Both the position numbers and the translations under genes were made by a program. From a virus: DNA of 38,775 nucleotides. This document shows positions 64-38,775 of this stretch, in pieces. The stretch spans positions 1-38,775 of the IMG/VR virus record IMGVR_UViG_3300044765_000078; one strand, given 5' to 3'. The notes under the pieces are model-generated. The model did no database searches. It was not told the origin of the DNA and saw only the letters and a list, made by a program, of their open reading frames with translations. Each line of letters begins with the position of its first letter. The first letter of the stretch is position 1.

Positions 64-300
64 ATGAGAAAAGCAGACAGCTGGTTCTTTGTGGTATGCG
101 CAGTGATCGGCATGGGGCACTACCTTGCCACCGATAAAACTATCGTTGAAAGCTACGGATGGATCCCCGTACTTATCAGTTTGCTTGCTTATTTCATCTA
201 TTCTCTTTCGAATCGGATAGATGAGTTACAGCGTCGGATTGCCTTCCTTGAAGATAAGTCACTACAGGCAGACTACATCAGAAAGTTAGAAGACGGATAA
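64..300 (+). CDS. Small two-helix membrane protein, moron-like
   Basis: 78 residues from ATG 64; a GTG at 49 is possible but the AAGGG-type ribosome site favours 64. Two hydrophobic segments (about residues 7-23 and 38-53) are followed by a charged, coiled-coil-like tail (SNRIDELQRRIAFLEDK). This suggests an inner-membrane protein with a cytoplasmic helical tail. It is less GC-rich than its neighbours, stands alone and is followed by its own terminator at 346-369, all typical of lysogenic-conversion 'moron' genes. If the genome is circular, the SOS box at 38727-38746 lies about 90 bases upstream of its start, so its expression in the prophage may be linked to DNA damage. Family not recognised; superinfection exclusion is only a guess. 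Confidence 0.6.
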   Translation: MRKADSWFFVVCAVIGMGHYLATDKTIVESYGWIPVLISLLAYFIYSLSNRIDELQRRIAFLEDKSLQADYIRKLEDG

Positions 301-7084: not shown

Positions 7085-7284
7085 AGCGTTCAAAATGGAA
7101 AGTGCCGATGTCGAAGGCCAAGCCGAAGGAAGGGCATGCGCACTTCGTCCTTGCCTACAAAACCGCAGGCGGCGCGCGCATGGAGTTCGACGGCCAGTTG
7201 CCTGTCCACGCGGCGCAGATGCTAATGGCGCACGCGCTTGACGCGCGCCGGATTAACGAGACGCCTACCGATGGCGCGCTTTGA
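7081..7284 (+). CDS. Small basic hypothetical protein
   Basis: 67 residues, basic N-terminus (MKRSKWKVPMSKAKPK) followed by a beta-hairpin-like part and a helix (HAAQMLMAHALDARRI). ATGA overlap with the preceding gene. Function unknown. Confidence 0.6.
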   Translation: MKRSKWKVPMSKAKPKEGHAHFVLAYKTAGGARMEFDGQLPVHAAQMLMAHALDARRINETPTDGAL

Positions 7285-7298
7285 TGAAAGGACACCCC

Positions 7299-8174
7299 AT
7301 GGTCGCTGAACAAAACATCGATGCCGAGCGCGCGACGCCGGAACTGAAGCCGTGCCCGTTCTGCGGAAGTGCGGACATTGCGCATCACACCTTCGCCGAA
7401 GACGAATTGCGAGACTTCGTAATGTGCAACGGTTGCGGCGTATATGCGCAGCGCGGCGACTGTGAGGCCGAACCTGTAGAAGTATGGAACCGCCGCTCTG
7501 CCGCTATTGGAGAGGGCGGACTGCCGGAGCTGCCGACTTTGGATCCGAGCGTTGAATACTGCGCAGCCGAGATGTACGAATACGCGGTCAACTACGCCCG
7601 CGACGCCATCGCAGCTGATCGCCGGGGTAGCCAGGATTTAAATGCACTGCTGCTCGACGAATACCGCCGTGACCGCGATGCCGCGCGTGCTCGTGCCGCT
7701 GAACTAGAACTCAATCTCAGCGAGCCGGCGCCACAGGCTGAGCAGGTCGTGAAGACGTGGCAGGAGCGCATGTACACACCGAACGCGGACGGGATGCTGC
7801 CTGAGGATGAAACAGAAGCGATGCAAGAGGAAATCGCAGACCTCCGGGCCCAGCTTTCGCGGACGGCCCAGCAAAAGCCTGTTGCGTGGCTTGAGGCAGA
7901 GCCGAGCGCACGCGGCCGGCCAGCGCACGAGGTGATCTTGGGAATGATTTACAGCTCGCGCATCCACACCAAGTGCGCGCCGATGACGTCGAATCCAGTG
8001 TGGCCGCTCTACGCCGCACCGCCGCTGTCCAGCGAACAGCAGGCAACGCAGAAACCGTGCAGGCAAGAGATGATCGCCGCCGGTGCGAAGGCATTGCCGC
8101 GCACGTGTCCGCGTCATGGCCTGTCTGGGTGCCCGAGCATCGTCGAACAGCAGGCAGAGAAAGGAGAGAAGTGA
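7299..8174 (+). CDS. Lar-like restriction alleviation protein, extended
   Basis: 291 residues from ATG 7299 (AAAGGA seven bases upstream; earlier TTG/ATG at 7281/7284 lack a site). The N-terminus carries the Lar zinc-ribbon pattern: LKPCPFCGSADI (CX2C), then VMCNGCGVYA (CX2C), then EAVEVWNRR-like 'EPVEVWNRRSA'. Lar of Rac prophage reduces type I restriction. The rest is a long helical extension unlike minimal Lar, so this belongs to the fused, modular versions seen in phages. The actual activity is unknown. Confidence 0.75.
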   Translation: MVAEQNIDAERATPELKPCPFCGSADIAHHTFAEDELRDFVMCNGCGVYAQRGDCEAEPVEVWNRRSAAIGEGGLPELPTLDPSVEYCAAEMYEYAVNYARDAIAADRRGSQDLNALLLDEYRRDRDAARARAAELELNLSEPAPQAEQVVKTWQERMYTPNADGMLPEDETEAMQEEIADLRAQLSRTAQQKPVAWLEAEPSARGRPAHEVILGMIYSSRIHTKCAPMTSNPVWPLYAAPPLSSEQQATQKPCRQEMIAAGAKALPRTCPRHGLSGCPSIVEQQAEKGEK

Positions 8175-33676: not shown

Positions 33677-34174
33677 TTAGGCTGGAGCCGCCCAGGCTTG
33701 AGAAGCGAGCATTTCGCGCTCGTCGTCGGTCGCATCCTCCGCAACCTTTACGAACACTGATCGCGGCGCGTATGGGAACTGGATTACGCGCATGCTGTGA
33801 AAGCCGGTGAAGCGGGAGCCGTTCGGGTCTTCAAATATGACGGCGTTGATGTCGTAAGGCTGCCCGTCGAACCGGTCTGCCTGCTTAAACACATGGCTGC
33901 AACGGTTGTTCTGGTACGCGTCAGGCCCGACCTCATTCCACTCCCAGTCTTCTCCGGTCAGCGGTGCGACCGGCTCGAACTTTGCGAGCTTCTCAAACAG
34001 GTTGATGGCATATGGCGCCGAAAAGCCAGAGTGGCCCGCTCCGTCAAAGACTGCCAGCAGTTCCAAGACGTGTTCGCAAATGAGCTTTTGCATGTCATCC
34101 TTGAACGTCCCGTCTTCATTCAGCCAGCCAGCAGCTTTGAATTCGCGCTGCGCATGTGTTTCGTAATTGCTCAT
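33677..34174 (-). CDS. Conserved phage protein of unknown function
   Basis: 165 residues. 'YETHAQREFKAAGWLNEDGTFKDDMQKLICEHVLELLAVFDGAGHSGFSAPYAINLFEKLAKFEPVAPLTGEDWEW' and 'YQNNRCSHVFKQADRF' match a very widespread phage protein found near replication genes across many tailed phages. No function has been established that I know of. The middle aromatic motifs suggest an enzyme-like fold. Confidence 0.78.
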   Translation of the reverse strand: MSNYETHAQREFKAAGWLNEDGTFKDDMQKLICEHVLELLAVFDGAGHSGFSAPYAINLFEKLAKFEPVAPLTGEDWEWNEVGPDAYQNNRCSHVFKQADRFDGQPYDINAVIFEDPNGSRFTGFHSMRVIQFPYAPRSVFVKVAEDATDDEREMLASQAWAAPA

Positions 34175-36007: not shown

Positions 36008-36226
36008 TCAGTGCTCCCTACGCAGAATCTTCATGGCGCGAGCGCGGCCGGTGCGCTGGATGTAGCCCTTACGCTCCATCAAGGCGAGCATGCTTACGAT
36101 CGAGTTTTGCGACGAGACGAGCATGTGCTCCATCATCTCGGCCTGGGAAGGCTGAGAGCCGGTCTCCGCAAGGTGTTTGACGATGAAGTCGTACAACTCT
36201 TTCTGACGTGCAGTGAGGCCGTTCAT
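36008..36226 (-). CDS. LexA DNA-binding domain without protease
   Basis: 72 residues. 'LTARQKELYDFIVKHLAETGSQPSQAEMMEHM' followed by 'SSQNSIVSMLALMERKGYIQRTGRARAMKIL' aligns over its full length with the LexA N-terminal winged helix (LTARQ, TG, AE, the recognition-helix Asn, ALxRKG). It stops where LexA's hinge starts, so there is no cleavage site and no Ser/Lys protease. It may bind SOS-like boxes but cannot be RecA-inactivated. Translated just before the O-like gene. Confidence 0.75.
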   Translation of the reverse strand: MNGLTARQKELYDFIVKHLAETGSQPSQAEMMEHMLVSSQNSIVSMLALMERKGYIQRTGRARAMKILRREH

Positions 36227-37836: not shown

Positions 37837-38082
37837 TTACTGCGGGCGGGACACGGGTTCGGCAGGTTCGCGAGATTCGGTGTAACGAGTCGGATAGATG
37901 AGTTGCAGCTCGCTTACCTCGCCGTCAAATTCAGCGCAGATTCGCTCTGCCAGTTGGGCATTGGGGATTTGAACTCCCCGCTCGATGCGGCTTAAGTTGC
38001 CGACGTCGCTGCCCACCTTCTGAGCGAGAGCGCCTAGCGTCATGCCGCGTTTTTCACGCGCTTGTCGAAGAGGTGATTTCAT
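37837..38082 (-). CDS. Cro-like XRE regulator
   Basis: 81 residues. Helix-turn-helix in 'PLRQAREKRGMTLGALAQKVGSDVGNLSRIERGVQIPNAQLAERICAEF'. It is transcribed away from the repressor gene, first in the leftward early operon, so it takes Cro's place in a lambda-like switch. AGGAG lies about 11 bases before ATG 38082. Only a short tail follows the HTH. Confidence 0.8.
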   Translation of the reverse strand: MKSPLRQAREKRGMTLGALAQKVGSDVGNLSRIERGVQIPNAQLAERICAEFDGEVSELQLIYPTRYTESREPAEPVSRPQ

Positions 38083-38102
38083 GGGATTCGATGCTCCTAA
38101 GA

Positions 38103-38163
38103 TGCGTACTACGCACTTTATCTCAGAAACGCTTGATGCGCAATACGCCTTGCGCAGTTCGCA
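38103..38163. promoter_or_regulatory. Immunity operators and leftward promoter
   Basis: Three TGCG-N5-CGC sites lie between the divergent regulators: TGCGTACTACGCA (38103-38115), TGCGCAATACGCC (38137-38149) and TGCGCAGTTCGCA (38151-38163). A minus-strand promoter TTGCGC, 17 bp, TAAAGT (complement of 38138-38143 and 38115-38120) reads into cro; its -35 lies under the second site and its start under the first. The third site is on the repressor side and may control repressor synthesis. Confidence 0.78.
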
Positions 38164-38185
38164 TCAAAATTCCACAATCGGACAC

Positions 38186-38584
38186 ATGACAGTTGGTGAA
38201 AAGATCAGGGCGATACGTGTCGCCAAAGAGATGACGCTCGCAGAGGTAGAGGCGCGGGCAGGCCTAACAGATGGAAACCTGTCGCGGATTGAGCGGGGGA
38301 AGCAATGGGTGAGTGAAGAGGTACTTCGAAAGATCGCTCAAGCATTACTGGTGCGCGTCGCCGACTTCTTTGATGACGACGCGCCTCCTGGTGTTCCTGC
38401 TGATTATCAGCATCCGGCAACGCAGCGGTTCCAGGAATTGCTGGGTCAAGCGGCCGATGAGGTGCGTCTACTTACTGTTTATCGTCTCGCTGACACCGCG
38501 GAACGTGCGCAGATCGACGCGGCTGTGTCCGACGTTATTGATAGGCTTGATATTGTTGCCATTCTTAACAAGCGTAAGGGCTGA
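38186..38584 (+). CDS. Lysogenic repressor candidate, XRE family, no S24 domain
   Basis: 132 residues from ATG 38186; the frame continues upstream to 38042 through the operators, so 38186 is preferred although its ribosome site is weak. HTH at about 5-55 ('IRAIRVAKEMTLAEVEARAGLTDGNLSRIERGKQ'). A C-terminal helical part (about 92-132) contains 'LLTVYRLADTAERAQI', a likely oligomerisation helix. There is no peptidase S24 fold, so it should not self-cleave in response to RecA. Induction must use another route, most simply the SOS-controlled gene that overlaps its 3' end. Confidence 0.8.
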   Translation: MTVGEKIRAIRVAKEMTLAEVEARAGLTDGNLSRIERGKQWVSEEVLRKIAQALLVRVADFFDDDAPPGVPADYQHPATQRFQELLGQAADEVRLLTVYRLADTAERAQIDAAVSDVIDRLDIVAILNKRKG

Positions 38585-38698
38585 TCGAGACGTCTCCGGA
38601 AACCTCTTTTGCAGTTGCTTGGCATAGGACCGAAGTCTGTCACGGCCGTCTGGGTTAGTCATGCGGTATGTCTCAATCAACTCGTTGACGTCATCCAT
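38468..38698 (-). CDS. SOS-controlled small protein, candidate antirepressor
   Basis: 76 residues from ATG 38698 with GGAGGGAG upstream; the in-frame TTG at 38710 is less likely. It starts MDDVNELIETYRMTNPDGRD and continues as a charged helix (RLRSYAKQLQKRFPE). The module YR-x-x-N/D-x-x-x-R recalls the repressor's own C-terminal helix (VYRLADTAERAQI). The consensus LexA box 28 bases upstream of ATG implies induction by DNA damage. The gene converges on the repressor and covers its last 117 bases. Function as antirepressor is inference; the protein is not one I recognise. Confidence 0.65.
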   Translation of the reverse strand: MDDVNELIETYRMTNPDGRDRLRSYAKQLQKRFPETSRSALTLVKNGNNIKPINNVGHSRVDLRTFRGVSETINSK

Positions 38699-38722
38699 GT
38701 CTCCCTCCAAGTTCAGAACGCT

Positions 38723-38750
38723 AAACTACTGTACACCTATACAGTAGTTT
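38723..38750. promoter_or_regulatory. Consensus LexA (SOS) box
   Basis: TACTGTACACCTATACAGTA (38727-38746) contains CTGT-N8-ACAG, the LexA consensus of gamma- and betaproteobacteria. The dyad extends to 11 perfect bp each side of a 6-base centre (38723-38750). A possible minus-strand promoter (ATGACA at 38768-38773, 16 bp, TAAACT at 38746-38751, complementary strand) would start transcription inside the box. It also lies in the divergent region before the 64-300 gene if the genome is circular. Confidence 0.85.
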
Positions 38751-38775
38751 ACGCTAGGGAATATTGGTGTCATAA

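Follow-up and report, generated by a model that had tools for sequence, protein, structure and literature searches.

The window analysed here, a stretch of 38,775 bases, is a phage genome that encodes P22-like portal, head-closure and terminase proteins together with an integrase. Near its right end lies the gene of a CI-like repressor of 132 residues (38186-38584, plus strand), which consists of a helix-turn-helix (HTH) head and a short C-terminal hairpin domain (38414-38575, plus strand). The leftward early operon opens with the gene of a Cro-like HTH protein of 81 residues (37837-38082, minus strand), and the probable CI/Cro operators (38102-38164) are placed between cI and cro. The sequence of these probable operators, ATGCGTANTAYGCA, occurs in two exact copies, one between cI and cro and the other before the rightward early genes (475-488), and the count of its near copies is above that in all 100 shuffles. 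Convergent with the repressor gene, a small open reading frame (ORF; 38468-38698, minus strand) starts with ATG behind a GGAGGG ribosome-binding site (38703-38708, minus strand). The last 117 nt of this ORF are antisense inside the repressor gene. Elsewhere in the window, a gene at 33677-34174 (minus strand) matches Tad3, an inhibitor of type I Thoeris (Pfam E 7e-36), and is a probable counter-defence gene, and a gene at 7281-8174 (plus strand) carries an N-terminal Lar-like restriction alleviation domain.

Ahead of the small gene lies a putative LexA/SOS box (38727-38746, minus strand), TACTGTACACCTATACAGTA, with 0 mismatches to TACTGT-N8-ACAGTA. The window has no other match to this pattern at up to 2 mismatches (shuffle mean 0.27), and the same box is its sole exact CTGT-N8-ACAG. 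The box is embedded in a perfect palindrome (38722-38751) with arms of 12 bp and a spacer of 6 nt (12+6+12), the only inverted repeat in the box region, whose outer arms vary in relatives. A preliminary description had reported a consensus SOS box that controls a 76-residue gene with a strong ribosome site, next to a 132-residue repressor without the S24 protease. The box is confirmed as an exact and unique match, and the small gene behind it has exactly 76 codons. Pfam finds only the HTH in the repressor, and S24 was detected in two other repressors as positive controls (L013 and L041).

The end of the window is contiguous with its start: a relative (L004) spans the joint, and 45 of 60 positions left of the joint are identical (best of 300 shuffles, 42). 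Despite its classification as linear, the contig probably represents a whole genome in circularly permuted form. With the two ends joined, the box is flanked on its far side by a divergent gene for a small membrane protein (64-300, plus strand). This gene is not conserved; a different gene lies across the box in every relative, and a terminator is found there in L012. Because the neighbour changes each time while the box stays, the box belongs to the small ORF, and the possibility that it switches this neighbour instead is rejected.

The window also encodes a stand-alone LexA DNA-binding domain of 72 residues without a protease (36008-36226, minus strand; Pfam LexA_DNA_bind E 2.7e-17), whose gene adjoins a replication gene in the leftward early operon. 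The box might be the operator of this protein, which would leave the small gene outside SOS control. Such an arrangement is very unlikely. The 72-residue protein was not seen in any of the four other phages that carry the box, whose records may be incomplete, and the domain is rejected as a general binder of the box on this ground. Furthermore, the counterparts of Glu44-Glu45 of E. coli LexA are Val-Ser by inspection, and so its recognition of CTGT is doubtful, judging from the known LexA contacts. We infer instead that the box is bound by host LexA; the binding specificity of this LexA is presumed on the basis of the box and of distant Pseudomonas and Burkholderia affinities. A host search by tblastn with the portal, the integrase, the tail fibre and a 163-residue protein returned only distant Pseudomonas, Burkholderia, Klebsiella and Pantoea matches; for the same purpose, genome contigs were searched with A2 and 398 genomes were scanned for a pattern, neither with any match.

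Selection on the small protein

The small ORF, the repressor gene and the box occur together in five contigs (the window, L004, L006, L007 and L012), and the ORF has the same number of codons in all five. The 37 codons outside cI have a mean pN of 0.21 and a mean pS of 0.82 in these loci. When the five other frames of these codons are considered, pN exceeds pS in four, and the remaining antisense frame shows a smaller difference (0.30 and 0.54). Within the overlap, the small ORF has pN and pS values that are about equal, as expected because cI sets the sequence there. The selection pattern in two further families, B and C, is similar to that of the window type. The small ORF is a real gene under strong selection at the protein level. 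Its stop codon requires a TTA or CTA leucine codon in cI, which is present in all five loci; other cI leucines use these codons in 6 of 60 cases.

Because selection is seen outside the overlap and none is visible within it, the conserved functional part of the protein is the N-terminal helical hairpin (residues 1-37, 38588-38698). The AF2 model of the small protein has helices at residues 2-14 and 16-32 and an uncertain tail; mean pLDDT values of 58.5 and 60.9 give the AF2 models of the small protein and the repressor low to moderate confidence. The protein had not been recognised in the preliminary description, and this still holds after profile searches against Pfam, NCBIfam and PHROGs and sequence and fold searches against the PDB, none of which gave a match. 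No copy was found in named phages and plasmids.

The window-type relatives keep TACTGT-N8-ACAGTA with at most 1 mismatch, and the box is kept in about 25 contigs overall. It is intact in L007 and L012 although the leader between the box and the ATG has diverged there. The window-type family (A) and family C have the N8 of the box (ATRGGTGT) and the leader GTTTAGCGTTCTGAACTTGGAGG in common, although their proteins differ strongly. Because this N8 is conserved beyond what LexA would need, the box may have a role besides LexA binding.

The box could act without the protein, by driving an antisense or interfering transcript through the whole of cI that would lower repressor synthesis, with or without read-through into cro, so that the protein is secondary. 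The direction of transcription and the 117-nt overlap are real. On the strand of the small gene, the start of cI contains a terminator-like hairpin with a T-run (38209-38224, minus strand), as would be expected if the transcript covered cI and stopped short of cro. All five window-type loci have this hairpin (L007 with one compensatory change), and L013 and L014 lack it. However, it has only 5-6 bp and is near chance level in a simple scan, and is suggestive only. Weak as it is, it disfavours read-through from the box into cro. An antisense transcript as the main effect is unlikely, because all three families show strong selection on the amino-acid sequence in the first 37 codons, which are outside cI, and this means that a protein is needed. 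In addition, halting CI synthesis would be a slow way out of lysogeny while existing CI stays active.

Linkage of the small gene to the repressor tail

An exact scan with the box as the sole pattern (CTGTATRGGTGTACAG) across 2.9 million viral contigs returned 53 stretches, 21 of which show the arrangement of small ORF and repressor. Four of these loci are of the window type, and the others belong to two divergent families, six to family B and eleven to family C. In families B and C, the small ORF lies behind the box and is convergent with a repressor of 129-176 residues (L075 is cut by the end of its stretch). The small proteins are related across the families (hhalign 97% for A against B and 75% for B against C), and so are the repressor tails (99% for A against B and 92% for A against C). 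The C-terminal hairpin domain is common to all three families. The heads are of the window type, of the B type and, in family C, of four different kinds; no Pfam HTH model matches two of these four.

A search with the tail of a family C repressor as query, using neither the box nor the small gene, returned 14 loci with four kinds of HTH. All 14 carry an exact CTGT-N8-ACAG 135-225 bp beyond the repressor stop together with a convergent ORF, and in three of them (L239, L240 and L245) the N8 of the box differs from the pattern CTGTATRGGTGTACAG. Within family C, the similarity of the small proteins tracks the C-terminus of the repressor (r 0.87) more closely than the HTH (r 0.54). Because the overlap physically ties the small gene to the tail, co-inheritance alone is no proof of interaction. 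The overlap accounts for part of the linkage, but the box and the hairpin-coding part of the small gene lie outside it. In total, about 25 viral contigs carry the cassette, and the DNA-binding heads of their repressors are of six or more kinds.

Among repressors with a different tail, the closest is that of L013, which is 71% identical in the head and carries an S24 domain (E 6e-20); neither the box nor the small gene is present in that locus. No such box is found near the cI gene of L014, which has a third kind of tail. As a separate observation, about 15 distinct repressors of enterobacterial-type phages, which have the same head and also a complete S24 domain (L041-L056, L058 and L062), are encoded by cI genes that contain an SOS box, perfect or nearly so (TACTGT-N8-ACAGTA/G), within the coding sequence, at position +207 in a variable linker. 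The box codons ACT, TAC and AGT are invariant there and the neighbouring codons vary, and this intragenic box is possibly also a LexA site.

A looser box scan mostly returned other LexA-driven genes. Among the loci observed, L118, L127, L149 and L155 (and L085) carry another LexA-boxed family of about 100 residues that starts with RLRCRPGDLARI and is convergent with ORFs of 118-144 residues, at least some of which are HTH-like and possibly repressors. The one member of this family tested against Pfam gave no match. This family may represent the arrangement in a second form that is unrelated to the first. LexA-boxed small ORFs with N-termini like that of phage 186 Tum lie beside Ogr-like zinc-finger genes in L136 (near 5260) and L172 (near 3500).

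Resemblance of the two hairpins and a proposed switch

The hairpin of the small protein, LIETYRMTNPDGRDRLRSYAKQLQKRF, resembles the repressor tail (in family C, MVETYRLASPTDRLRIDLAVREARDNI). The alignment of the window-type small proteins with the family C tails by hhalign gives 85.5% over 32 columns with a score of 28.2, which none of 250 column shuffles reaches (maximum 18.7); the reversed profile gives 0.9% and 11.5. The comparison of small proteins A with tails B is nearly significant, and the small proteins of families B and C, each compared alone with the tails, give no significant match. For the small protein and its own CI tail alone, the likeness is only suggestive (P about 0.02; hhalign P 0.075), and it became significant once families B and C were included. 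This suggests a hairpin-to-hairpin pairing similar to that of SinI with SinR.

The protein might be SOS-induced and yet have another target, such as RecA and the SOS response, which DinI modulates, cell division, or the repressor of another phage. Phages do have LexA-controlled genes that are not antirepressor genes, for example dinI homologues (PMC3121763). This is quite unlikely here, as the small protein matches neither DinI nor any other family in Pfam, NCBIfam and PHROGs, keeps to one kind of repressor C-terminus across changing heads, and resembles that C-terminus. It is least likely of all that the protein is a positive partner of CI, namely a subunit of a hetero-oligomer or a stabiliser that is made during SOS as a brake to delay induction. 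A hairpin like that of CI could enter a mixed oligomer, and Hex of phage 434 is reported to protect its repressor (PMC3564112). However, a non-cleavable repressor combined with an SOS-made stabiliser would leave the phage no visible SOS exit, and the S24 relatives clearly have one.

The product of the small gene is most probably an antirepressor that is induced by the SOS response and directed against the neighbouring repressor. An antirepressor driven by a LexA box, next to a repressor that cannot be cleaved, had been proposed from the window alone, and it is the best-supported reading after comparison with relatives: the protein is selected, the box follows the ORF, an S24 relative lacks both, the tail and the boxed ORF are linked in 14 of 14 loci, and the two hairpins are alike. 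The antirepressor probably acts by imitating the C-terminal hairpin of the repressor, the proposed target. In the lysogen, host LexA would occupy the box and keep the small gene off. Upon DNA damage, RecA would make LexA cleave itself, allowing the small protein to be made. The small protein would then bind the repressor, most likely by pairing its own hairpin with the similar hairpin at the repressor C-terminus. The paired repressor would be unable to form the oligomer that holds the operators, and lytic transcription would start. The cassette of C-terminal hairpin, small gene and box would thereby stand in for the S24 self-cleavage domain found in relatives with the same repressor head.

Relation to known antirepressors and meaning for temperate phages

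The circuit logic of the module is shared with the Gifsy prophages of Salmonella, whose LexA-controlled antirepressors GfoA, GftA and GfhA inactivate short repressors without a self-cleavage domain (Lemire et al. 2011, PMC3121763). In both cases, a small LexA-controlled protein is combined with a non-cleavable repressor. However, the Gifsy genes form part of a LexA operon that begins with dinI and lies about 1.3 kb beyond the replication genes, at a distance from the repressor, whereas the box of the window directly precedes a single gene that ends inside cI, with no LexA operon carrying dinI and irsA homologues. The window gene is also convergent and overlapping with the repressor gene, and its product is like the repressor C-terminus. 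The PHROGs antirepressor families gave no match to the small protein.

Tum of coliphage 186, to which the small gene had also been compared at first, is the product of a LexA-boxed promoter and inhibits DNA binding by CI (PMC3121763). The comparison stands for the circuit logic and fails for the protein family. Tum has 146 residues with a DinI-like second half and is encoded in its own operon about 6 kb from cI, whereas the window gene overlaps cI. Kinship with Tum is rejected because the small proteins show no sequence or profile similarity to it (blastp E 0.27; hhalign 0.1-0.2%).

In the phage-plasmid N15, the gene of AntC lies in a separate anti-immunity region. AntC is an SOS-regulated antirepressor according to Mardanov and Ravin 2007, as that work is cited in PMC10432266. 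The main repressor of N15 is annotated as a LexA-family regulator. In Bacillus subtilis, SinI and SinR form a heterodimer, in which the small antagonist dissolves the multimer of an HTH repressor (PMC6123443). SinI/SinR is a chromosomal biofilm switch outside the SOS response, and the likeness to the window lies in the proposed mechanism and not in the family; the Pfam profiles of SinI and DinI and the NCBIfam profile of DinI did not match the small protein. In the TF-smORF modules of prophages, a small orphan protein inactivates CI without proteolysis (Silpe et al. 2023, PMC10432266). These modules are SOS-independent and use a dedicated transcription factor as the switch, whereas the window uses a LexA box. 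A search of the literature outside subscription journals found no description of this arrangement. The circuit logic is already known from Tum, Gifsy and N15, and the family, the convergent overlapping layout and the swappable cassette appear to be new.

A wider reading would be that three parts form a transferable SOS-switch cassette, namely a short tail domain of the repressor, a convergent gene that overlaps it and encodes a mimic of this tail, and a LexA box. Recombination would join this cassette to unrelated heads and make any phage repressor damage-inducible without S24; the mimic may descend from the repressor tail, and the SOS transcript would double as an antisense transcript of cI. 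We place the chance of this wider reading slightly below even. Short repressors that lack a domain for self-cleavage are common among temperate phages, and the way in which such phages sense DNA damage is for the most part unexplained. The module of box, small hairpin gene and repressor tail is recognisable and predicts SOS inducibility from sequence. The likeness of the two hairpins suggests that antirepressors may arise as copies of the oligomerisation tail of the repressor itself.
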